Shown one piece after another: positions 1-11,587 of a stretch of DNA of 64,000 nt. Every line of letters starts with the position of its first letter. The stretch's first letter is position 1. A program made the position numbers and the translations under genes. This DNA comes from Falsiroseomonas tokyonensis (GTDB lineage: Bacteria; Pseudomonadota; Alphaproteobacteria; Acetobacterales; Acetobacteraceae): positions 434,118 through 498,117 of the forward strand of contig NZ_JAFNJS010000002.1 of the NCBI RefSeq assembly GCF_019024325.1. Reading direction: 5' to 3'. Under the pieces are notes generated by a model. It was given only the letters and a program-made list of their open reading frames with translations. It was not told where the DNA came from and did no database searches.

Positions 1-1
1 G

Positions 2-793
2 GCGGAGGCCGCGGCCCGGGATGCCCGGCAGGGGCGCCTCTTCGGCGTCTGGAACACCGATGGCTTCGGGGAGGCGCCGCTGGCCTTGGCTGATGGCGTG
101 CTGCGCGGCCGCAAGATCCTGTGCTCCGGCGCCGGCTGGGTGGAGCGTGCGCTGGTGACGGCGCGCGAGGCGGCGGAGGCTCCGCCGCAGATGCTGCTGG
201 TGGCCCTGGCGCCGGGCGAGCGCGCGGATCTCGCCCCCTGGACCGCGCAGGGCATGCGCGCCTCCGCCACCGGCGCGGTGGATTTCACCGGGCTGCCGGC
301 TTCGGCCATCGGAGTGCCGGGCGATTATCTGCGGCAGCCCGATTTCTCCGGCGGCGCCTGGCGCTTCGCCGCCGTGCAATGCGGCGGGCTAGAGGCGGTG
401 CTGGGCCTGCTGCGCGCGCATCTGCGGCGCACCGGCCGCGGCGGTGACCCGCACCAGGCGGCACGTCTCGGCCAGGCGGCCATCGCCGCGGAGACGGCGC
501 GGCTCTGGGTGGTGGCGGCGGCCGAGCGCGCCGAGGCGGCCGAGCCCGCCAGCGACGTGGTGGCGCAGGTGAACCTGGCGCGGCTGGCGGTGGAGCGGGC
601 GGCGCTGGATGTGCTGGAACTGGCGCAGCGCTCCATCGGCCTGCAGGCCTTCATGCGGCCCAACCCCATCGAGCGCGTGGCCCGCGACCTGGCCACCTAT
701 CTGCGCCAGCCGGCGCCGGATCGCGCGCTGGTGGAAGCCGCCGCGCATGTGCTGGCGGCGGAGGCCGAGCCCGGCGACCTGTGGGACCGATGA
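2..793 (+). CDS. Acyl-CoA dehydrogenase family protein (5' truncated by window edge)
   Basis: The frame is open from base 2, so the true start lies upstream; 263 residues are visible. The visible start reads GRLFGVWNTDG and then GRKILCSGAG, which fits the middle beta-domain of acyl-CoA dehydrogenase-like flavoproteins. A helical C-terminal half follows, with ARLAVERAALDVLELAQRSIG, typical of the family's last bundle, where the flavin and the second subunit contact. The stop overlaps the next start (ATGA), so it is translationally coupled to the PIG-L gene. Substrate is unknown. In this context it may act on an acyl chain of a glycolipid or be a degenerate relative with another role. The catalytic base cannot be judged from the fragment. 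Confidence 0.8.
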   Translation, partial: AEAAARDARQGRLFGVWNTDGFGEAPLALADGVLRGRKILCSGAGWVERALVTAREAAEAPPQMLLVALAPGERADLAPWTAQGMRASATGAVDFTGLPASAIGVPGDYLRQPDFSGGAWRFAAVQCGGLEAVLGLLRAHLRRTGRGGDPHQAARLGQAAIAAETARLWVVAAAERAEAAEPASDVVAQVNLARLAVERAALDVLELAQRSIGLQAFMRPNPIERVARDLATYLRQPAPDRALVEAAAHVLAAEAEPGDLWDR

Positions 794-1563
794 AGGCCGG
801 CGACTGGCTGCGCGCGGCGGAGCGCGACCTGCCCACCGGCACGGACCCGGCCGCGCTGCTCGGCCCCGATGGCGCCGCGCTGGTGCTGGCGCCGCATCCG
901 GATGACGAGAGCCTGGGCTGCGGCGGCCTGATCGCCGCCTGCGCCGCGGCGGGGCGGCGCGTGACCGTGGTGGTGGTCAGTGACGGCGCCGGGTCGCATC
1001 CGGGCTCGGAGGCCTGGCCGCCGCCGCGCCTGGCGGCGCTGCGGCAGGCGGAGACGCGCGCGGCGGTGACCGAGCTGGGGCTGGATGCGGGGCGGGACCT
1101 GCATTTCCTCGGCCTGCCGGACCGCGCCGTGCCGTGGCAGGGGCCGGCCTTCGACGCAGCCCTGGCGCGGCTGGCGCAACTCGCGCCCGCGCGCTGCACC
1201 ATCCTGGCCGCCTGGCAGCACGACCCGCATGCGGACCACGCCACCAGCTTCGTGCTGGCCCAGGCACTGCAGCGGCGCCTGGCGCCCGGCGCGCGGCTGC
1301 TGGCCTATCCGGTCTGGGGCCTGGCGCATGCCCATCCGGTGCCCGGCTTCCCGCTGCCGCCGCCGCCCGGCATGCCGGCGCCGCCGCGTGGCTACCGGCT
1401 GGATGTCCGGCCCTGGCTGCCTGCGAAGCGCCGCGCCATCGCGGCACATCGCTCGCAGCTCGGCCAGGTGGTGCGCGACGATCCGGTTGGCTTCGTGCTG
1501 CCCCAGGCGCTGCTGGACCTGGCCTGCCGGCCGCAGGAACTGTTCCTGGAGGAGGCCGTATGA
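790..1563 (+). CDS. PIG-L (LmbE-like) family deacetylase
   Basis: 257 residues. The metal-binding motif of the PIG-L family is visible as PHPDDES (H36, D38, D39), followed by a VVVVSDGAGSH strand-loop. A second histidine-containing stretch, AAWQHDPHADHATS, supplies the distal ligand and catalytic histidines. Family members remove N-acetyl groups from GlcNAc-type sugars using zinc. The start was taken as the ATG that overlaps the upstream stop (ATGA); a GTG nine bases earlier is possible. The stop overlaps the methyltransferase start, so three genes are coupled. The neighbouring methyltransferase suggests that the freed amine, or another site on the same sugar, is then methylated. Related proteins occur fused to such methyltransferases (family knowledge). 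The actual substrate is unknown. Confidence 0.9.
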   Translation: MKAGDWLRAAERDLPTGTDPAALLGPDGAALVLAPHPDDESLGCGGLIAACAAAGRRVTVVVVSDGAGSHPGSEAWPPPRLAALRQAETRAAVTELGLDAGRDLHFLGLPDRAVPWQGPAFDAALARLAQLAPARCTILAAWQHDPHADHATSFVLAQALQRRLAPGARLLAYPVWGLAHAHPVPGFPLPPPPGMPAPPRGYRLDVRPWLPAKRRAIAAHRSQLGQVVRDDPVGFVLPQALLDLACRPQELFLEEAV

Positions 1564-2138
1564 CCAAGCCCAGCCTGCCGCCGGACTATTTCGAGGCGCT
1601 GTACCAGGCCGATCCCGACCCCTGGCGCTTCGCCGAAAGCGCCTATGAGCGCGACAAGTACCGCGACACGCTGGAGGCCCTGCCGCGCCCGCGCCATGCC
1701 AGCGCGCTGGAGGCCGGCTGTTCCATCGGCGTGCTGACCGCCGCCCTGGCGCCGCGCTGCGAGGCCCTGTTGGCGGTGGATGCCGCGGCGGCGCCACTGG
1801 AAGCCGCCCGCACCCGCTGCGCCGGACTGCCGCAGGTGACGATCCGCCAGGCGGTGCTGCCGCGGGACTGGCCCGAGGGCCGCTTCGACCTGATGCTGTT
1901 CTCCGAGGTCCTGTACTACCTCGACGCCGCGGACCTCGATCGCCTCGCGACGCGGGTCGCCGAGGCCCTGGCGCCGGGCGGCGACATCCTGCTGGTGCAC
2001 TGGACCGGGGAGACCGACTATCCGCAGACCGGCGACGCGGCCGCGGAAGCCTTCTGCGCCGCGCTGGCGCCGCGGGCGGAGGTCACGCTTCGGCAGCGCA
2101 GGCCGCGCTATCGGCTGGATCTGCTGCGCGGCCGCTGA
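1560..2138 (+). CDS. NodS-like class I SAM-dependent methyltransferase
   Basis: 192 residues. The N-terminus YFEALYQADPDPWRF and AYERDKY is the signature of the nodulation-protein-S group of methyltransferases. The SAM-binding motif I is ALEAGCSIGVLTAALA, motif II LLAVDAA, and the post-motif is FDLMLFSEVLYYL. NodS N-methylates the deacetylated amine at the non-reducing end of lipochitooligosaccharides. The protein here is about NodS-sized. The start ATG overlaps the PIG-L stop (ATGA), which fixes the start. The gene ends 56 bases inside the convergent glycosyltransferase gene. Function as an N-methyltransferase of an amino sugar is inference from family and context. Confidence 0.85.
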   Translation: MTKPSLPPDYFEALYQADPDPWRFAESAYERDKYRDTLEALPRPRHASALEAGCSIGVLTAALAPRCEALLAVDAAAAPLEAARTRCAGLPQVTIRQAVLPRDWPEGRFDLMLFSEVLYYLDAADLDRLATRVAEALAPGGDILLVHWTGETDYPQTGDAAAEAFCAALAPRAEVTLRQRRPRYRLDLLRGR

Positions 2139-3240
2139 CCCAGCTGCGCCCGAAGCGCAGTAACTTCAGCAGGGCGCGCAGCCGGGCCGTTTCGCCCGGC
2201 AGCTCCGCCATCCGCAGGGGGCGCCGCTGCAGGGCGGGGGCCGCGTGCTGCAAGGCCTCCCAGGCCGGCCAGAAATGCGGCATGGCGGCAATCTTCCGCA
2301 GCTGGTCCAGGGGCAGGCCCAGCGCCAGCGCCAGCCGGCGCGGATCACCCAGTCGCGGCCGGCCCTCATGCAGGCGCCGCAGCGCGTTCCGGCAGCGCAG
2401 CCGCAGCAGCGCGGCCAGCGCCGGCTCCAGCCTTTCATCCGCTGGCGCTTCCGGCTCCGCCAGGCGCCGGCGCAGCGTATCGGCCATGCCGCCCAAGGCG
2501 CGCCCCTGCAGGCGGCAGGAGACGATGACGCGCGCCGCCGGCGAATGTCGCACCCGCAGGCCGGCGCGCTGCAGCGCCGCGAACAGCGCCCGGTCCTCGC
2601 CCACCGGAACCTCCGGCAGGCCGCCGACGGCCTCATAGGCGGAGAGGCGCAGCGCGATGGAGGCGCCGGAATGCACCGCATGGCGCGGCCAGGGGTCGTG
2701 CGGATCGGCATCCACCAGGCTGGCCATCTCCTCCAGCAGCGCGGCGTAGCCGGATTCCAGCGCTTCCCGCCGCCGCATCGGCGCGGGCAGCAGGGCCGCC
2801 TCCTCGGGGTCGGGCGCATAGGTGCCGGCCACGGCATCCGCGCCGGCGGCGAAGGCCGCCAGGTTGGCGGCGATCCAGCCGGGCGTGGCGCGGCCATCGG
2901 CATCGGTGCTGAACAGCAGCGCCCCCTGCGGCGGGTCGGCGCCGAACAGGGCGGCACCCGCCTCCATCGCCGCCCGTCGGGCGCCGCCGGCATGGGCGCG
3001 GCCGGGCGGCAGCCGGCATTCCCCGACCTCCAGCCTGAAGGGCAGGCGGGGCGCCAGGGCGCGGGCCAGGCCGGCGGTGTCGTCGGTGCAGTTGTTGGCC
3101 ATCACCAGCACCGCCACATCCGCCGCCGCCACGCCCTGCTGGACCGCCAGCGCGGCGAGGCAGGCGGGAAGCTGGGCGGCCTCATCCCTTGCCGGGATGG
3201 CGATGACGAGGCGCGGCATGGGGCGGGGCGACGATTGCAT
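2083..3240 (-). CDS. Family 2 glycosyltransferase
   Basis: 385 residues with a GT-A fold start: RLVIAIPARDEAAQLPACL binds the nucleotide sugar, and LLFSTDADGRATPGWI contains the metal-binding DxD-like acidic motif. VPVGEDRALFAAL is the later ED acceptor-site motif. No obvious transmembrane segment follows, so it is probably cytosolic or peripheral. The gene runs against the methyltransferase and its last 56 bases overlap it. The start may be seven codons later (MPRLV). The opposite strand means it is not in the same operon as the PIG-L and NodS-like genes, but the gene content suggests a shared product. Donor and acceptor are not identifiable. Confidence 0.85.
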   Translation of the reverse strand: MQSSPRPMPRLVIAIPARDEAAQLPACLAALAVQQGVAAADVAVLVMANNCTDDTAGLARALAPRLPFRLEVGECRLPPGRAHAGGARRAAMEAGAALFGADPPQGALLFSTDADGRATPGWIAANLAAFAAGADAVAGTYAPDPEEAALLPAPMRRREALESGYAALLEEMASLVDADPHDPWPRHAVHSGASIALRLSAYEAVGGLPEVPVGEDRALFAALQRAGLRVRHSPAARVIVSCRLQGRALGGMADTLRRRLAEPEAPADERLEPALAALLRLRCRNALRRLHEGRPRLGDPRRLALALGLPLDQLRKIAAMPHFWPAWEALQHAAPALQRRPLRMAELPGETARLRALLKLLRFGRSWVSGRAADPADSAACAAEA

Positions 3241-3324: not shown

Positions 3325-4941
3325 TCAGGCCGCCTTGCCCATGATGAAATCCGCCGCCCGCTCCGCGATCATCAGCGTGGTCGCGTAGGTATTGGCCGAG
3401 GGCATGGACGGCATGATGGAGGCATCCACCACCCGCAGCCCGGCCATGCCATGCACCAGCAGCCGGTCGGACACCACGGCGGTCGGGTCCGTATCCGGCC
3501 CCATCCGCGCCGTGCCGATCAGGTGATAGGTGGTGCTGCCGTTCTTCTTGGCGAAGTCCAGCAGCTCGTCGTCGGATTGCGCGGCGGGGCCGGGCAGGGT
3601 CTCGCGCTCCAGGAAGCGGGAGAGCTGCGGCGTGTTCAGCATGCGGCGCACCAGGCGCATGCCGGCCAGGTGCACGCGGATGTCCATCGGGTCCGAGAGG
3701 TAGTTCGGGTTGATCTCCGGATCCTCGAAGACATTCGTGCTGCGCGCGCGCACCCAGCCGGTGCTTTCCGGCCGGTGCTGCCAGGACCCGGCGGTGACGC
3801 CCGGATAGTCGTCCAGGATATAGACCTTGCCCTCGGCATAGCTGCCGGGGGTGAAGACGCATTGCAGGTCCGGCTGGTCCAGCCCCTCGAAACTCTTCCA
3901 GAAGACATGGACGTGGGAGGGGGCGGTGGCGAGGATATTGGGCTTGCCCATGGCCCAGCGCGCGAGCTGCGCGCCCAGCTTCAGGCCGCGCCCGAGCTGG
4001 TTCAGCGTCTCCACCCCCGGCTTGGCGCGCATCACGAGGCGGGAGGCGTAGTGGTCGCGGAAATTGGACCCGACACCGCGCAGCTCATGCACCACCGGCA
4101 CGCCGAGACGGCCGAGCAGATCGGCCGGTCCGACGCCCGAGACCTGCAGCAGCCGCGCGGTATTGCAGGTGCCGGCGGAGACGATGACCTCCTTCCGCGC
4201 CAGCACGCGCTTCGGCGCCTCGTTCGGGCCGTGCAGGTATTCGATGCCGGTGGCGCGCTTGCCCTCGAACAGGATGCGGCTGGCCCGCGCATCGGTGCGC
4301 ACCTCCAGGTTCTTCCGCGCCATGGCCGGGTGCAGGAAGGCGCGGGCGGCGGAGACGCGGCGGCCGTTGCGGATGGTGCGCTGGTAATAGCCGACGCCGG
4401 CCTGCTCGCCGGAATTGTAGTCCCTGGCGCGCGGGATGCCGAGGCCGAGGCAGCCCTCGATGAAGGCCTCGGAGACCGGGTGGATCCAGTCCATGTCGGT
4501 GACGGGGATGCCGCCTTCCGTGCGGCCGCGCGTTTCGTCACCCAGGCCGATGCGATTCTCGCTGCGGCGGTAGTAGGGCAGGCAATCCGCATAGCCCCAG
4601 CCGCGATTGCCGCGCTGCGCCCAGCTGTCCAGGTCCGCGGGCTGGCCGCGATTGTAGATCATGCCATTGACGGAAGACCCGCCGCCCAGCGTCCGCCCCT
4701 GGGTGGTGCTGATCCGCCGGCCGCCCGTCATCGGGATGCCCTCGGTCTTGAACTGCCAGGTGACGCCGGGGTCGGCCAGCGTCTTCACGAAGCCGGCGGG
4801 CAGGTGGATGAAGGGGTTGCGGTCGGGCGGGCCGGCTTCCAGCACGCAGACGGTCACGCCCGGGTCGGCGGTCAGCCGGTTGGCCAGCACCGAACCCGCG
4901 GCGCCGGAGCCGACGATGACATAGTCGAAGGTCTCGCTCAC
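3325..4941 (-). CDS. GMC family oxidoreductase (choline-dehydrogenase-like)
   Basis: 538 residues, the usual family length. The FAD-binding beta-alpha-beta is DYVIVGSGAAGSVLANRLT followed by VCVLEAG. The GMC signature appears as GRTLGGGSSVNGMIYNRG. The C-terminal active-site region contains TTYHLIGTARMGPD and SANTYATTLMIAERAAD. The first active-site histidine is present, while the second region reads SANT instead of the more usual GNTN. It oxidises a primary or secondary alcohol with FAD; the substrate is unknown. The GTG start overlaps the RidA stop (GTGA). It is the last gene of a monooxygenase-RidA-oxidoreductase run, suggesting an oxidative catabolic role. Confidence 0.9.
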   Translation of the reverse strand: MSETFDYVIVGSGAAGSVLANRLTADPGVTVCVLEAGPPDRNPFIHLPAGFVKTLADPGVTWQFKTEGIPMTGGRRISTTQGRTLGGGSSVNGMIYNRGQPADLDSWAQRGNRGWGYADCLPYYRRSENRIGLGDETRGRTEGGIPVTDMDWIHPVSEAFIEGCLGLGIPRARDYNSGEQAGVGYYQRTIRNGRRVSAARAFLHPAMARKNLEVRTDARASRILFEGKRATGIEYLHGPNEAPKRVLARKEVIVSAGTCNTARLLQVSGVGPADLLGRLGVPVVHELRGVGSNFRDHYASRLVMRAKPGVETLNQLGRGLKLGAQLARWAMGKPNILATAPSHVHVFWKSFEGLDQPDLQCVFTPGSYAEGKVYILDDYPGVTAGSWQHRPESTGWVRARSTNVFEDPEINPNYLSDPMDIRVHLAGMRLVRRMLNTPQLSRFLERETLPGPAAQSDDELLDFAKKNGSTTYHLIGTARMGPDTDPTAVVSDRLLVHGMAGLRVVDASIMPSMPSANTYATTLMIAERAADFIMGKAA

Positions 4942-5396
4942 TTCAGCAGCACCACGGCCTCGATCTCCACGGCGATGCCGCGCGGCAGGCTGGCCAGGCC
5001 GACGGCGGAGCGGGCCGGGCGCCCGGCCTCGCCGAAGACCTCCACGAACAGGTCGGTGCAGCCATTGATGACCTCAGGCTGATGGCCGAACTCCGGCACC
5101 GCGCGGACCATGCCGAGCACCTTCAGGATGGTGTCCACCCGGTCCAGGGAGCCCAGCGCATCCCGCATATTGGCCAGCAGGTTGAGGCCGCAGAGCCTGG
5201 CGGCCGCATAGCCCTGCTGCACATCGAGATCGGCGCCCACCAGCCCGGTGATGGAGCTGCCATCGGCCCGGCGCGGCCCGACGCCCGAAAGGAACAGCAG
5301 CCCGCCGCCGATCCGCCAGGGCACGTAGTTGCCCATGGGCTTGGGCGTGGGCGGCAGGTCCAGCCCCAATTCCTTCAGGCGCGTCTCGGCGGACAT
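4938..5396 (-). CDS. RidA family protein
   Basis: 152 residues of the longer YjgF/YER057c/UK114 (RidA) subgroup, with GGGLLFLSGVGPR near the N-terminus, GLNLLANMRDALGSLDRV in the middle, and RSAVGLASLPRGIAVEIEAV at the end. RidA proteins hydrolyse reactive enamine/imine intermediates, or serve related deaminase steps in catabolic operons. The ATG at 5396 is preceded by GGGGGAG, which favours it over an upstream in-frame start. The gene is coupled by a four-base overlap to the GMC gene and lies 68 bases after the monooxygenase. The specific imine or lactone-like substrate cannot be told. Confidence 0.88.
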   Translation of the reverse strand: MSAETRLKELGLDLPPTPKPMGNYVPWRIGGGLLFLSGVGPRRADGSSITGLVGADLDVQQGYAAARLCGLNLLANMRDALGSLDRVDTILKVLGMVRAVPEFGHQPEVINGCTDLFVEVFGEAGRPARSAVGLASLPRGIAVEIEAVVLLK

Positions 5397-5464
5397 CTTC
5401 GGTACACTCCCCCTTGGGGCGGCCATCTTGCCGCCGCCGTGGCGGCTGATCCACCCCCGGGCGA

Positions 5465-6502
5465 TCAGAGGCCCAGCGCCGCGCGCACCCGTGGCCGCAC
5501 CTCGCGGCCCAGCAGCTCGATTGAGCGCAGCATGCCGGGCTTGTCGCGCGCGGCGGAGCTCATCTGGAAGGTCAGGCGGTCGATGCCGCCCAGATCGCGG
5601 GAGGAGGCGAGCACCTTCTCCGCCACCTCCGCCGGGTCGCCCACCAGGAAGGCGCCACGCGGGCTGACCAGGGCGTCGAACTGCGCCCGCGTCGCCGGCG
5701 GCCAGCCGCGCTCGCGGCCGATCTTGGTGAACATGGCCTGCCAGCCGGGGAAGAAGCGGTCCCGCGCCTCCTCGCTGGTCTCCGCCACGAAGCCGAAGGC
5801 ATGCACGCCGACGCGCAGGCTCTCCGGCGCATGGCCCGCCTGCGCGCCGGCGCGGCGATACAGGTCGACCAGCGGGCGGAAGCGCGCGATCTCGCCGCCG
5901 ATGATCGCGATCATCAGCGGCAGGCCCAGCAGCCCGGCGCGGGCGAAGGATTCAGGGGTGCCGCCGACGCCGATCCAGATCGGCAGCTTCTCCTGCTGCG
6001 GCCGCGGGAAGACGCCCTGGCCATTCAGCGGCGGGCGGAACTGGCCGGACCAGCGGATATGGCTCGCTTCCCGCAGGCCCAGCAGCAGCTCCAGCTTCTC
6101 GATGAAGAGCGCGTCGTAATCCTTCAGGTCGAGGCCGAACAGCGGATAGGCCTCCACCGAGGAGCCGCGCCCCACCACCATCTCCGCCCGGCCGCGGGAG
6201 ATCAGGTCGAGGGTCGCGAATTCCTGGAAGACCCGCACCGGGTCGGCGGCGCTGAGCACGGTCACGGCGCTGGTCAGGCGGATGGACTGGGTGCGGGCGG
6301 CGGCGGCGGCCAGGATCACGGGTGGCGCGCTGTCGAGATAATCCTCCCGGTGATGCTCGCCGATGCCGAAGACATCGAGCCCGGCGCGATCCGCCGTCTC
6401 CACCTCCTCCAGCAGGAAGGCCATGCGGTCGGCATCGCTGCCCTCCACCTGGCCATTGGTGCCGGTGAGCTTCGCGGCGAAGCTGTCGATGCCGATGTCC
6501 AC
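5465..6502 (-). CDS. LLM class flavin-dependent oxidoreductase (luciferase-like)
   Basis: 345 residues, the usual size for bacterial luciferase-like monooxygenases. Visible family segments are GLDVFGIGEHHREDY, RLTSAVTVLSAADPVRVFQ, EMVVGRGSS and KLPIWIGVGGTPESF. These are the F420/FMN barrel elements of the group that includes alkanal monooxygenase-like proteins. It would use reduced flavin and oxygen on an unknown substrate. The start is a GTG with AAGGAGA just upstream. It is the first gene of the run leading to RidA and GMC oxidoreductase, and lies 83 bases downstream of a LysR gene on the same strand. Confidence 0.85.
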   Translation of the reverse strand: MDIGIDSFAAKLTGTNGQVEGSDADRMAFLLEEVETADRAGLDVFGIGEHHREDYLDSAPPVILAAAAARTQSIRLTSAVTVLSAADPVRVFQEFATLDLISRGRAEMVVGRGSSVEAYPLFGLDLKDYDALFIEKLELLLGLREASHIRWSGQFRPPLNGQGVFPRPQQEKLPIWIGVGGTPESFARAGLLGLPLMIAIIGGEIARFRPLVDLYRRAGAQAGHAPESLRVGVHAFGFVAETSEEARDRFFPGWQAMFTKIGRERGWPPATRAQFDALVSPRGAFLVGDPAEVAEKVLASSRDLGGIDRLTFQMSSAARDKPGMLRSIELLGREVRPRVRAALGL

Positions 6503-6585: not shown

Positions 6586-7476
6586 CTAGGCTTCGGCCGG
6601 CGTGATCGCGGGCTGCAGCAGCAGGCGGACCAGGGGGTTCGGGAAGCGGCGGGACATGGTGACGGCGTGGAAGGTCTCCACGATGCCCGGCAGTTGTTCG
6701 CCTTCCACCAGCACGCCCGCCGCGATCTCGTCCTTCACCACGATGGGCGGCAGCACGGCCAGGCCGATATCCTCCCGCGCGAGGAGGCGCATCATCGCCA
6801 TGTCCTCCACCTCCGCCACGATCTTCGGCCGCACGCCCAGCGCATCGGCCAGGGAATCGAAGCCGGTGCGCACGCTGCTGTCGAGCGTCGGCAGGATGAT
6901 GGGATGGCTGCGCAACCGGTCCGCCAGGCTGGCCGCATGGCCCAGGCGATCCGGCGTGCCGACCAGGCTCACCGTCCGCTCCGCCAGGCGATGGGTGACG
7001 AAGGGCCGCAGGGCATCGGCGGGCGGCGCCTGGTTCAGCAGGACCAGGTCGAGGTTCAGCGCCTCCAGCGCCCGCAGCAATTCGCCGGCGCTGCCGGAGC
7101 GCAGGATGAGGTCGATCTCGGTGCGGCCGAGCACCGGGCGGAGGAACTCCATCTGGAAATTGCGCGACAGCGTGGCCAGCGAGCCGAGGCGCAGCGCCTG
7201 GCGCGTGCCCCCTGTCTGCCGCAGCGTGCCGAGCATTTCCTCGCCCGTGGCGAAGATGGCGTCCGCATGGTCCAGCACGATCTGCCCGGCCTCGGTCAGG
7301 TGCAGCGCCCGGCCGCGCCGCTCGAATAACGCATGGCCCAGGCGCTCCTCCAGCTTGCGGATCTGCACCGAGAGGGCGGACTGCGTCAGGTTCAGCCGTT
7401 CCGCCGTGCGGGTCAGGTGGCCGTCATGGGCGACGGCCCGGAAGTAGCGCAGGTGGTTGTAGTTCAGCTCGGCCAT
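6586..7476 (-). CDS. LysR family transcriptional regulator next to dabBA
   Basis: 296 residues. The N-terminal winged helix (about residues 5-64) reads LNYNHLRYFRAVAHDG, LTRTAERLNLTQSALSVQI and LEERLGHALFERRGR, followed by a substrate-binding-like effector domain from about residue 90. The NYNHLRYF start resembles the NhaR-type subgroup. It is divergent from dabB, with a perfect inverted repeat directly before its start codon. LysR regulators commonly accompany DAB genes (family knowledge), so control of dabBA is the favoured inference. The same-strand monooxygenase operon 83 bases downstream is the alternative or additional target. The inducer is unknown. Confidence 0.9.
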   Translation of the reverse strand: MAELNYNHLRYFRAVAHDGHLTRTAERLNLTQSALSVQIRKLEERLGHALFERRGRALHLTEAGQIVLDHADAIFATGEEMLGTLRQTGGTRQALRLGSLATLSRNFQMEFLRPVLGRTEIDLILRSGSAGELLRALEALNLDLVLLNQAPPADALRPFVTHRLAERTVSLVGTPDRLGHAASLADRLRSHPIILPTLDSSVRTGFDSLADALGVRPKIVAEVEDMAMMRLLAREDIGLAVLPPIVVKDEIAAGVLVEGEQLPGIVETFHAVTMSRRFPNPLVRLLLQPAITPAEA

Positions 7477-7499
7477 ATCGTTCGTCTATAACGAACGAT
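7477..7499. promoter_or_regulatory. Perfect inverted repeat, candidate LysR operator for dabBA
   Basis: Arms ATCGTTCGT and ACGAACGAT (nine bases each) flank a five-base centre, CTATA. The core fits the T-N11-A pattern of LysR boxes. The repeat abuts the ATG of the LysR gene, leaving no room for a normal ribosome binding site, and lies 77 bases before dabB. Binding here would suit autoregulation plus activation of dabBA. Confidence 0.6.
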
Positions 7500-7575
7500 T
7501 CTACGCGAACAATGCATTTTTCTGGGTCGATGCGGATCGCTATCGAGGGCGCCGCCATCGATCCCGGGGATTGCC

Positions 7576-9138
7576 GTGTTGCTCACCCTGCTGCCCTTGT
7601 TCGCGCCGCTGCTGCTGATCGCCGCCGCCGTCTTTGCCTTCCGCCGCGGCGGGCCGCGGGTGCCGGCCCTGGCGGAGGCGGCGGGCTTCGGCGCGCTGCT
7701 GGTGGCCCTTGCGTCGCTCGCGCTGCTGCTCGCGCGCGGTTCCGGGACCAGCGGGCTGGTCGGTTGGGGTGGCATCGGCCTTTCCGCCCGGCTGGATGCG
7801 GTGAGTGCCGCCATGCTGCTGCTGGTGTCCTTCGTCGGCTGGGTCGTGCTGCGCTACAGCCGCACCTACCTGGATGGCGAGGCGCGGCAGGGCTGGTTCA
7901 CGGGCTGGCTCTGCGCGGCGCTGGCCGGCGTGCTGTTCCTGGTGCAGGCCGGCAACCTGGCCCAGCTTCTGGCCGCCTGGATCGCCACCAGCCTGGCGTT
8001 GCACCGCCTGCTGCTGTTCTACCCCGAGCGCGTGGCGGCGCAGCGCGCGGCGCGGAAGAAGCGCGTCTTTTCCGCCATCGGCACCGGCGCACTGCTGGGT
8101 GCGGGGCTGCTGGCCTGGATCGGCTTCGGCACCACCGATATCGCCGCCATCAATGCGCTGGCCCGGGAAGGGCAGGGGTCCTGGCTGGCCGTCGCGGCCG
8201 CCGGCCTGCTGGCCCTGGCCGCGGTGCTGAAATCCGCGCAATTCCCGACCCATGGCTGGCTGACCGAGGTGATGGAGGCGCCGACCCCGGTCTCCGCCCT
8301 GCTGCATGCCGGCGTCATCAATGCCGGCGGCTTCCTGCTGATCCGCTTCGCCGATGTGATGCTGGCTGCCCCCGGCGTGCTGGCGGTGCTCGCCATGCTG
8401 GGCGGCTTCACGGCGCTGTTCGGCGCGCTGGTGATGCTGACCCAGCCGGCGGTGAAGACCTCGCTCGCCTGGTCCACCGTGGCGCAGATGGGCTTCATGA
8501 TCCTGCAATGCGGGCTGGCGCTGTTCCCGCTGGCCCTGCTGCATATCCTGGCCCATTCGCTCTACAAGGCGCATGCCTTCCTCGCCTCCGGCGGGGCGGT
8601 GGAGCAGGTGGCGGGGCTGCGCCGGCCGGGGCCGGTGGCGGTGCCCGATGGGGCGGCGGTGGGCCGCGCCTTCCTGCTGGCGCTGGCCATCTATGCCGGG
8701 ATCGGCGCCGCTTTCGGGCTCGCCTTCGGCTTCGGCCAGAAGTCGCCCCAGGCGCTGGCGCTGGGCGGCATCCTGATCTTCGGCGTCGCCTATCTGCTGG
8801 CCCAGGGCCTGGCGGATGCCGCGCCGCGGCCGCTGACGCGCCGGACGGCCTTCTATGCCGCCGCCGCCGCGGTGGGATACTTCGCGCTGCAGAGCGCCGC
8901 CGAATTCCTGACGGCGGGGGTGCTGCCCGCCACGCCGGCGCCCGGCCGGCTGGAATGGACGCTGATGCTGCTGGCCGTGCTGAGCTTCGGCCTTGTGGCC
9001 GTGGCGCAGGCGCTGTTCCCGCTCTGGGCCACCCATCCCGCCGCGGCGGGGCTGCGCGTCCACCTCTCCAACGGGCTCTACGCCAATGCGGCGATCGACC
9101 GGATGCTGGGCGGCTGGGCCCTGCGGAAGGCCTCGTGA
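7576..9138 (+). CDS. dabB: DabB: NuoL-like proton/sodium-conducting membrane subunit of DAB carbon pump
   Basis: 520 residues with about a dozen hydrophobic segments. The antiporter-like core is recognisable as [20 protein letters not shown] followed by [18 protein letters not shown], the conserved NuoL/MrpA ion-path region with lysine and histidine residues. A further ion-path stretch follows at [19 protein letters not shown]. It is shorter than NuoL and lies directly before dabA, with a four-base gap. In characterised DAB systems DabB couples ion flow to the DabA carbonic-anhydrase-like subunit to build up cytosolic bicarbonate. The start is GTG (the annotated leader is [12 protein letters not shown]). 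No other complex I genes are nearby, which argues against a respiratory role. Confidence 0.85.
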
Positions 9139-9142
9139 CGCC

Positions 9143-11587
9143 ATGAAGACCGGGACCCTCCCCATGACCACGACCGAAGCCCCGCTGCCGACGCCCGATG
9201 CCATCCTTGCCGCGGCCGACCAGGCGGCGCGCGCCATTCCCCCGCTCTGGCCGCTGGCCTCCAGCGTCGCGGTCAATCCCTTCCTCGGCCAGGCGGGAGA
9301 GCCGCTGGCGATCGCGGCGGCCCGCCTACGGCGGGCGGCGGGCATCGCGCTGACCATGCCGCGCGCCTGGTATGCCGACAGGCTTATCTCCGGCGAGATC
9401 GCCGCGCAGGACCTGCAAGAGGCCTGGCAGGCGGCGCCGGCGGCGCTACGGCCGGCGACCCCCCAAGCCGTGACGCAGGCCTTGCGCCAGCAAGCCGCGC
9501 CGCCGCAGGCGCTGCCGACGGTGGCGGAACTGGCGCGCGAGGCCGCCGGCATCGACTGGCCCGGCCTCGTCAACGAACGCATCGGCCATTGGGCGGCCAG
9601 CCATTTCGACCAGGGCCAGGCGCTCTGGGCCAGCGCCCCCGCCGCCGGCGCCTATGCGTCCTGGCGGATGGTCGCGACGCATGACCTGACGCCGGAGATC
9701 CTCGGCCTTCCGGGCTTCGCGCAGGCCGTGGTGGATGCGCCGATCCGTGCGGAGGCGGCGATTGCAGACGCCGTCGCCCAGCTCGGCCTCTCGGAGGCTG
9801 CGCTGCCGGGCTATTTCCACCGGCTGCTGGTGACGCTGGGCGGCTGGAGCCAGGTGGCGCGCTATCGGCTCTGGCAGGCGGAGTTGGAGGGCGGCACGGA
9901 TGCGACGGTGACCGACCTGCTGGCGATCCGCCTGAGCTGGGAGGTCGCGCTGCTGCGCCGCTATGGGGCCGCGATCGCGCCCGGCTGGAAGGCCGCCATC
10001 GCCGCCTATGCCGAGCCGGTGGCGCCGACGGCGGAGGATGTGCTGGACGCCATCCTGCAGGAAGCGGCGGAGCGCGGGGCGCAGCGGCGGTTTGGCGCGC
10101 TGCTGGCGCGGGCGCCGGCGCGGCTGGCCGACTCTGCGCGGCCCGCACTGCAGGTGGCCTTCTGCATCGACGTGCGTTCCGAAGTCTTTCGGCGGGCGCT
10201 GGAAAGCCTGGATCCCGGCATCCAGACGCTGGGCTTCGCGGGCTTCTTCGGCCTCGGCCTCGGCCATCGCCGCTTCGGCTCGGATGTGGTGGAGGCGCGG
10301 CTGCCGGTGCTGCTGAAGCCGGCCGTCTTCACCTGCTCCGGCGAAGCGACGCCGGAGGTGGCGGAGGCGGACCTGGCCGCGCGGATCGGCGCGCGCGCGA
10401 AGCGCGCCTGGGGGCGCTTCAAGCTGGCGGCCATCTCCTCCTTCGCCTTCGTCGAGGCCGCGGGTCCGATCTATGTCGGCCGGCTGCTGCGCGATGCACT
10501 GGCGCTGAAGCGGGCCGCGGCGCCGAAGGATCCGGCTCCGCGCCCGGCCCAGGCGCTGGACCTGGAGACCCGCCTGGCCACGGCCAGCGCCGTGCTGAAG
10601 GCCATGTCGCTGACCAGCGGCTTCGCGCGGCTGGTCCTGCTGGCCGGGCATGGCGCCAATGTGGTCAACAACCCGCATGCCAGCGCCCTGCATTGCGGCG
10701 CCTGCGGCGGCTATACGGGCGAGGTGAATGCGCGGCTGCTGGCCGCCCTGCTCAACGACAGCGAGGTGCGCGCGGGCCTTGCCGTGCGCGGCATCGCCAT
10801 TCCGGAGGACACGCTGTTCCTCGGCGCGCTGCACGATACGACGACGGATGCGGTGACGCTCTACGCGGAGGATCATCCCTCCGCCGCGCATGCAAGGGAT
10901 CTCGACCAGGCGGCGCGCTGGCTGGACTCCGCCGGGCTGCTCGCGCGCGATGAGCGCGCGCTGCGCTTGCCGCGGGCCAGGGGGCGCGCGGACATCCTGC
11001 TGCGCGCGCGGGACTGGGCGGAGCTGCGCCCCGAATGGGCGCTGGCCGGCTGCCAGGCTTTCGTCGCGGCGCCGCGCTCGCGCACCGCGGGGGCCGACCT
11101 GGCCGGCCGGGCCTTCCTGCACGACTACGACTGGCACCGGGACGAGGATTTCCGCGTGCTGGAGCTGATCCTGACCGCGCCCGTCGTCGTCGCCAGCTGG
11201 ATCAGCCTGCAATACTACGGATCGACCGTGGCGCCCGAGGTCTTCGGCGCCGGCAACAAGTTGCTGCACAATGTCACCGGCGGGATCGGCGTGGTCGAAG
11301 GCAATGGCGGCCTGCTGCGGCCCGGCCTGCCCTGGCAATCGGTGCATGACGGGACGCGGCTGGTGCATGAGCCGCTGCGCCTTGCCGTGATGGTGGAGGC
11401 ACCGGCCGAGGCGATCACCGCCATCCTCGACCGCCACAAGCAGGTGCGCGCGCTGTTCGACAATCGCTGGCTGCACCTGTTCACCCTGGACGAGGCGGGC
11501 CGCATGGCCAGGCGCTATGTCGGGGACCTGCGCTGGGAGGCGGCGGGCGAGCGGGCCGAGGCGGAGCCAAGCCTGGTCCCGGGCTGA
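9143..11587 (+). CDS. dabA: DabA: zinc beta-carbonic-anhydrase-like subunit (DUF2309) of DAB carbon pump
   Basis: 814 residues, family-typical. All four residues expected at the DabA zinc site are present: C341 and D343 in [10 protein letters not shown]503 in [14 protein letters not shown], and C518 in LHCGACGG. The H-to-C spacing of 15 residues matches the characterised protein. The N-terminus contains [17 protein letters not shown], another family block. It hydrates CO2 unidirectionally on the cytosolic side of the membrane when energised by DabB. Start ATG at 9143; a second ATG seven codons later is possible. No RuBisCO, carboxysome or carbonic anhydrase genes are seen in the window, so an anaplerotic role in a heterotroph is plausible. 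The last 73 bases overlap the convergent LysR gene. Confidence 0.92.

Follow-up and report, generated by a model that had tools for sequence, protein, structure and literature searches.

A four-gene set lies at the start of a 64,000-nucleotide stretch of the Falsiroseomonas tokyonensis genome (the window; positions 434118-498117 of contig C12 in a genome of 6.16 Mb). It encodes a protein resembling acyl-CoA dehydrogenases (ACAD-like), a PIG-L de-N-acetylase, a NodS-like methyltransferase (MT) and a family-2 glycosyltransferase (GT2), which together may make a small amino-sugar glycoside and which we call the cassette (Table 1). The reading frames, the Pfam matches and the junctions in the sequence confirm the initial annotation's description of three ATGA-coupled genes on which a glycosyltransferase gene converges: the ATG at 790 overlaps the TGA at 791-793 at the ACAD-like/PIG-L junction, the ATG at 1560 overlaps the TGA at 1561-1563 at the PIG-L/MT junction, and the 3′ ends of the MT and GT2 genes overlap by 56 bases. 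For PIG-L, the listing of open reading frames prefers a GTG start at 781 over the ATG at 790. The 5′ end of the ACAD-like gene lies before the window, and its full frame was read from L003, a stretch reaching upstream; the whole protein has about 380 residues, and its start is uncertain, falling 350-530 bases ahead of the window depending on whether it is taken from the longest frame, which opens at L003 9471, or from the conserved part, which opens at about 9651. Homologous sets keep 29-74% protein identity to the window proteins, with conserved catalytic residues, which argues that the association is more than chance.

Table 1. Location of the cassette genes, of genes next to them and of related proteins in other genomes
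Feature	Location	Strand	Profile match
ACAD-like protein (3′ part)	window 1-793	+	Acyl-CoA_dh_1 8.8e-9, Acyl-CoA_dh_N 1e-6 (Pfam)
PIG-L (LmbE-type) de-N-acetylase	window 790-1563	+	PF02585 2.1e-23, 83.6 bits (cut-off 28.2)
NodS-like S-adenosylmethionine-dependent methyltransferase (MT)	window 1560-2138	+	PF05401 1.5e-15
GT-A family-2 glycosyltransferase (GT2)	window 2083-3240	-	PF13641 1.6e-6, PF00535 1.5e-5
GMC oxidoreductase, YjgF/RidA-like protein, luciferase-like monooxygenase	window 3325-6502	-	
LysR regulator to DabA protein	window 6586-11587		
Proton_antipo_M protein	window 7576-9138		1.7e-37
DabA protein	window ~9143-11587		PF10070 1.2e-263
GT1-type glycosyltransferase	L003 7247-8470		rifamycin-inactivating Rgt, 113.6 bits (NCBIfam cut-off 800)
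CE4-ACAD-MT-oxidoreductase-GT2 set, Rubrobacter indicoceani plasmid	L197 5948-10599		CE4 3.6e-26
GT2-MT-CE4 protein	L158 6379-9384		
GT2-MT-CE4 protein	L159 7528-10707		
GT2-MT-CE4 protein	L160 7447-10503		
GT2-MT-CE4 protein	L161 5817-9455		
GT2-MT-CE4 protein	L190 6610-9516		
GT2-ACAD frame (788 aa), Methylobacterium aquaticum plasmid	L121 3539-5905		
Extended ACAD-like protein, Deinococcus radiodurans	L192 11201-13540		
Second PIG-L gene	L174 8808-9623		
Second PIG-L gene	L176 6520-7287		
Second PIG-L gene	L182 9333-10238		

Conservation was analyzed in one alignment per protein, built from 30 loci hand-picked for spread among 51 that carry all four proteins, with five plasmid loci added; L090 was removed from every alignment and L066 from two of them (A1 and A4), and the structure predictions were built on 28 rows. 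The HPDDE and HxDH residues of PIG-L are invariant in all 34 aligned rows, so the active-site residues, whose absence from orthologues would have spoken against the initial annotation, are intact; among all 51 loci the sole exception is L114, which misses the first motif because its gene is split over two frames. In Pfam the window deacetylase matches PIG-L alone, and not CE4. A PIG-L profile searched against the PDB found diacetylchitobiose deacetylases best (2.4e-20), followed by TT1542 and by N-acetyl-alpha-D-glucosaminyl L-malate deacetylase. Members of the PIG-L family de-N-acetylate sugars of the N-acetylglucosamine (GlcNAc) type, and by analogy the natural reading is that the cassette enzyme would do the same.

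For the methyltransferase, NodS is the top-scoring named family in both Pfam and NCBIfam, with a score of 73.3 bits that does not reach the NCBIfam cut-off of 300, and BLASTP aligned it with Rhizobium phaseoli NodS at 35% identity over 131 residues. Its profile matched PDB entry 4isc first (4e-43) and NodS (3ofj) next (1.5e-26). The former, presumably from Pseudomonas syringae and deposited merely as “Methyltransferase,” is a member of the cassette MT family (4.8e-71 against the MT of L176) and its nearest solved structure. On these sequence comparisons, the cassette enzyme is a relative of NodS and not NodS itself.

In GT2, residues D113, D115 and E215 are invariant, and D216 and R217 are present in at least 90% of rows. 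The predicted structure (predicted local distance difference test, pLDDT, 90.4) resembles GT-A glycosyltransferases, with PcManGT, AvpGT, chondroitin polymerase, WrtF, TarP and TarS among its Foldseek neighbors, at TM-scores of 0.35-0.44 by query length in the rows listed, from which the donor cannot be named. The QxxRW motif occurs in none of the 33 aligned sequences, and BLASTP against NodC gave at best 24.6 bits, for a segment of 24 residues that surrounds a shared GEDR. The family median of the peak 19-residue hydropathy is 1.27, and GT2 is probably soluble.

The ACAD-like protein lacks the catalytic glutamates of the enzymes after which it would be named. At the sites which we take to be those of the catalytic glutamates in the medium-chain (MCAD) and isovaleryl-CoA dehydrogenase types, all 33 aligned sequences carry other residues. 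The first site, located by counting from the conserved RD motif, is occupied by Pro in 27 sequences and by Ala in six, and the second by Trp in 31, Leu in one and Val in one. In addition, YEG[TSA] occurs in no row of the 33. Searched against the PDB, the family profile placed DszC first, with TdsC, methanesulfinate monooxygenase and two KijD3 entries also among the best, while nitrososynthase and DnmZ ranked lower, among acyl-CoA dehydrogenases. Residue H103 aligns on a DszC histidine, and the C-terminal RDLATYLRQPAPD stretch, which follows RD where YEGT is missing, aligns on near-C-terminal stretches of TdsC and methanesulfinate monooxygenase. With the predicted structure (pLDDT 93.7), flavin monooxygenases or nitrososynthases by title (MAB_4123 by its name in the PDB profile matches) fill 18 of the 19 leading Foldseek rows, the first row, 5gj7, being titled a putative acyl-CoA dehydrogenase.

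The ACAD fold, together with the top-ranking relatives in sequence and predicted fold, would place this protein, by small margins, among the class D flavin monooxygenases and nitrososynthases, a group that includes DszC, TdsC, KijD3 and DnmZ and shares its fold. It differs from them in that identity is only 18-24% in the Foldseek rows listed, and in having invariant residues specific to its own family (R98, E101, H103, W135, R353, Q354 and D358). We propose that it is a flavin-dependent oxygenase or oxidase of an amino sugar and not a fatty acyl-CoA dehydrogenase. KijD3, DnmZ and ORF36 oxidize the amine of nucleotide amino sugars, and on that ground amine oxidation is proposed here, as the least certain step of the pathway. 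The lipid modification envisaged in the initial annotation is not supported, given the loss of the catalytic glutamate and the ranking of flavin monooxygenases.

When genomes were searched with the PIG-L protein (E <= 1e-10), 67 of 200 from the window's family had a match, as did five of 190 drawn from its class, the window's own genome being counted in both samples; the named relatives are Roseomonas, Falsiroseomonas and Craurococcus records. The 74 places found in the family besides the window gave 73 stretches. With a cassette locus defined, by profiles of the four proteins, as an ACAD-like gene and an MT gene on the same strand and no more than 3.5 kb apart, 47 of these 73 stretches carry the pair beside PIG-L. 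Among all 137 loci examined, the pair is present in 95, from four phyla; 88 of them also have PIG-L, and 85 have GT2. These 95 comprise 54 from the window's family and class (including L003 and L040-L043), 24 from the MT-profile search described below and 17 plasmid records, and are not all independent, as L077 and L125 are 98.6% alike and the pairs L051/L052 and L101/L114 about 90-91%. The commonest gene orders are ACAD>PIGL>MT>GT2< (36 loci) and GT2>ACAD>PIGL>MT> (24); in beta- and gammaproteobacteria GT2 is shorter, lies mostly downstream on the same strand and appears each time as two profile matches. The linkage thus survives rearrangement of GT2 into several positions and orientations.

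A search with the MT profile alone, independent of PIG-L, covered 349 genomes of the phylum (E <= 1e-25) and found matches in 38. Seventeen of the 18 beta- and gammaproteobacterial genomes were examined at the locus level (G677 was left out, as were, among alphaproteobacterial places, two in G421, those in G429 and G542 and one each in G570 and G414), and an ACAD-like gene adjoins MT in 16 of the 17 loci (the exception being L180), with an adjacent PIG-L by profile in 13 and GT2 in 13. Together with the 47 family stretches, this bears out the co-conservation on which the proposal of a common function depended.

The four genes also occur together on plasmids of Deinococcus (L122), Bradyrhizobium (L123), Nostoc (L124), Komagataeibacter (L125), Sulfitobacter (L126), Limimaricola (L127), Acinetobacter (L193), Novosphingobium (L198), Sphingomonas (L199), Paracoccus (L200), Jiella (L201) and Comamonas (L204), and on a Kitasatospora plasmid (L194) where GT2 was detected by profile and is not annotated. 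Close to the window the distribution is patchy: within the genus, L054 has PIG-L in a different setting, and genomes G339 and G382 have no PIG-L match. Patchiness among close kin and frequent plasmid carriage make horizontal transfer likely, and the cassette is probably mobile. Among the largest 25 neighbor clusters listed, no fifth family of genes, whether for acyltransferases or for anything else, is found in more than nine of the 95 loci. Searches of the literature, with most subscription journals outside their coverage, found no description of this gene set, which is apparently uncharacterized as an amino-sugar modification cassette.

Individual loci depart from the common arrangement. D. 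radiodurans (L192) has three of the genes, without GT2, and a helicase gene separates PIG-L from MT; its ACAD-like protein has about 400 extra N-terminal residues, for which Pfam gave no match at E <= 0.01 and which look glycosidase-like by eye only. In three loci of one genus (L174, L176 and L182), a second PIG-L gene ends the cassette. The single frame joining GT2 and ACAD in L121 was not counted as a fusion, because the GT2 match ends at residue 302 and the intervening stretch looks like an out-of-frame tail; it is probably a broken GT2 end.

The initial annotation also compared the gene set to the synthesis of Nod factors, and here the evidence divides. On the plasmid of Rubrobacter indicoceani (L197), a CE4 polysaccharide deacetylase precedes ACAD, MT and GT2, with an extra FAD oxidoreductase of the pyridine-nucleotide-disulphide type between MT and GT2, and no PIG-L was found by profile in that stretch. 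Furthermore, five single proteins of 968-1212 residues (L158-L161 and L190) join GT2, a NodS-like MT and CE4, in stretches without an ACAD or PIG-L match, and in L191 MT and CE4 form one protein of 741 residues; NCBI names a protein of this type (L207) “trifunctional glycosyltransferase/class I SAM-dependent methyltransferase/polysaccharide deacetylase.” In a tree rooted on two NodS sequences, the seven MTs that come from the trifunctional proteins and from L191 form one group (support 0.968), and the cassette MTs, with those of L180 and L188, stand apart from NodS with weak support (0.533); we read no line of descent from this tree. The trifunctional proteins bring together the same kinds of GT2, MT and deacetylase activity as the cassette, in one polypeptide of about 970-1210 residues (five by Pfam) and with CE4 instead of PIG-L. 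That two unrelated deacetylases accompany the same type of MT suggests that deacetylation itself is what the MT needs. The combination of glycosyltransferase, de-N-acetylase and N-methyltransferase, which NodB, NodC and NodS of Rhizobium phaseoli (L205) likewise encode together, is therefore strengthened, whereas the NodC-type backbone synthase and the lipid step are not supported. The cassette differs from the Nod-factor set in that its PIG-L is non-homologous to the CE4 enzyme NodB, its GT2 is unlike NodC, it has an extra flavoprotein, and the conserved set has no acyltransferase. A modified amino-sugar glycoside is thus a likelier product of the cassette than a lipochitooligosaccharide.

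Our preferred reading, to which we give about even odds (a probability of roughly 0.5), is that the four genes act as one cassette, which directs the biosynthesis of a small, soluble, N-methylated amino-sugar glycoside. We infer the substrate, order of steps, solubility and product as follows: GT2 would transfer an N-acetylhexosamine, in the simplest case GlcNAc from its UDP form, to an acceptor; PIG-L would take off the N-acetyl group; the NodS-like enzyme, here proposed from its sequence to be an N-methyltransferase, would methylate the freed amine; and the ACAD-fold flavoprotein, having lost the dehydrogenase base, would oxidize the product, perhaps at the N-methylamine. A bolder version, which we hold only tentatively and think more doubtful than probable, is that this mobile four-gene pathway, present in at least four phyla, makes a soluble, N-methylated and N-oxidized amino-sugar glycoside (possibly built on trehalose in beta- and gammaproteobacteria) that protects against drying, osmotic or oxidative stress, with the flavoprotein acting as an amino-sugar N-oxygenase and the metabolite class being new.

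Several observations weigh against the preferred reading. A similar PIG-L occurs without the ACAD-MT pair in 26 of the 73 family stretches: three of these (L071, L080 and L083) are ACAD-PIGL-GT2 loci without MT, L058 has only an ACAD remnant and L113 has MT without ACAD, several of the remainder are ended by contig ends, and others hold related PIG-L proteins in different settings. Seven of the 95 cassette loci have no PIG-L by profile; in L181 and L196 a PIG-L gene lies elsewhere in the vicinity, and L197 has its CE4, leaving L170, L179, L184 and L186, where the profile found none. For the flavoprotein, the Foldseek margins separating monooxygenases from true dehydrogenases are small, and some dehydrogenases score equally or higher by TM-score. 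The MT might instead methylate oxygen or a different acceptor, and five of the 33 GT2 sequences exceed 1.6 in 19-residue hydropathy, among them the window's, which peaks at 1.79 (residues 28-46).

Four other readings of the gene set have to be set against this one. A Nod-factor-like lipo-oligosaccharide, whose GlcNAc oligomer would be made by GT2, modified at its terminal sugar by PIG-L and MT, and desaturated or otherwise processed in its acyl chain by the ACAD-like protein, has in its favor the three activities of NodC, NodB and NodS and the fact that NodS is the nearest functionally named relative of the MT; we consider it highly improbable in view of the missing QxxRW motif, the short NodC match, the lost ACAD glutamate and the lack of a frequent fifth family, such as an acyltransferase, among the neighbor clusters listed. 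A NodA profile (PF02474) found no match in the window's genome, nor in 14 control genomes, in a search that had no positive control. Glycosyl transfer, PIG-L deacetylation and N-methylation also follow the logic of low-molecular-weight thiols: BshB and MshB, which have the fold and motif of the cassette PIG-L, act on a GlcNAc pseudo-disaccharide, N-methyl-bacillithiol provides a precedent for an N-methylated thiol, and BshB1 is the best NCBIfam match of PIG-L. A thiol-like pseudo-disaccharide is nevertheless very unlikely, since PIG-L scores far below the equivalog cut-offs (BshB1, 44.5 bits against 182.5; BshB2, 42.1 against 195.25; MshB, 24.3 against 224.35), the glycosyltransferase belongs to family 2 where BshA and MshA are of the GT4 type, and no frequent fifth family accompanies the genes among the neighbor clusters listed, though no search was aimed at a cysteine ligase. 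Detoxification of foreign amines or glycosides, in which PIG-L would serve as a conjugate amidase beside a small-molecule methyltransferase and an oxygenase without any biosynthesis, would suit the first rank of DszC, an enzyme acting on a foreign sulfur heterocycle, as well as the plasmid carriage and the efflux genes of the resistance-nodulation-division type that lie some kb from two cassettes (L126 and L204); the presence of GT2 in most loci and its fusion with MT and a deacetylase in relatives point instead to synthesis, and make this reading unlikely.

The remaining reading, that the cassette modifies trehalose, or produces an amino-trehalose, to give a stress-protective solute, with trehalose or a related sugar as the GT2 acceptor, draws on the beta- and gammaproteobacterial loci. 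There the order otsB-otsA-ACAD-PIGL-MT-GT2 is found on one strand in L168 and L171, and otsA-ACAD-PIGL-MT-GT2-otsB in Comamonas (L204), with otsAB nearby in L177 and L193; genes of a second, unrelated trehalose route lie directly upstream of ACAD-PIGL-MT as malQ-treY-glgX in L174, L176 and L182, and as malQ-treY near the cassette in L172. Trehalose or alpha-glucan genes accompany seven of the 17 loci and none of 40 other windows from the same genomes (Fisher p = 7e-5). This association has to be read with caution: the gene list was fixed after the neighborhoods had been seen, the control windows were placed by hand at round-number coordinates in 16 of the 17 genomes (not G450), L171, L172 and L174, all among the seven positives, had supplied queries, and three of the seven come from one genus. 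OtsA is encoded in 13 of the 18 beta- and gammaproteobacterial cassette genomes; of these, G450, G566 and G662 have only one OtsA each, and it is encoded no more than 5 kb away from the cassette MT. Large catalases were found near 10 of the 95 cassette loci, against none of 24 non-cassette PIG-L loci and none of the 40 beta/gamma control windows; this is suggestive only, as one locus (L126) supplied the query, five of the ten are plasmid loci, and the 24 controls, from the window's class, are shorter on average. Against these stand the 62 alphaproteobacterial cassettes, the window's included, none of which has these trehalose genes nearby, so that we rejected trehalose as a general partner for this class; the one OtsA found in the window's genome lies on a different contig (C23), and shared stress regulation would yield the same neighborhood without a shared substrate. 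We consider a trehalose-derived product doubtful. Returning to the amino-sugar glycoside, the frequent position of the cassette inside trehalose operons makes osmotic, desiccation or oxidative protection its most likely use in beta- and gammaproteobacteria, a guess that has support there and is extrapolated for the window's lineage.

Other genes flank the cassette in the window. Adjoining it on one strand are genes for a GMC oxidoreductase, a YjgF/RidA-like protein and a luciferase-like monooxygenase; L040 and L041 likewise have the GMC-RidA pair after the cassette, and in L062 and L088 there are GMC genes at a greater distance. Next, a LysR regulator gene is divergent from those for a Proton_antipo_M protein and a DabA protein, which together probably form an operon for a DAB-type inorganic carbon transporter. 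Upstream of the window, a GT1-type glycosyltransferase gene is divergent from the cassette, with the rifamycin-inactivating Rgt as its best, sub-threshold NCBIfam match; we rejected it as a cassette member, since it stands beside the cassette only in L003 and L041 among 82 loci (L003 and L040-L120).

If the preferred reading is correct, genes that now carry separate and unconnected labels, namely “acyl-CoA dehydrogenase,” “PIG-L deacetylase,” “nodulation” methyltransferase and “glycosyltransferase,” would constitute one pathway to a small molecule in Roseomonas-like bacteria, Deinococcus, Acinetobacter, Nostoc, Kitasatospora and others, and the trehalose operons of beta- and gammaproteobacteria would offer a concrete place to look for its product. 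Relabeling the “acyl-CoA dehydrogenase” would remove a recurrent false lead to lipid metabolism, and the exchange of PIG-L for CE4 would show that the combination of activities known from Nod-factor synthesis recurs outside symbiosis.

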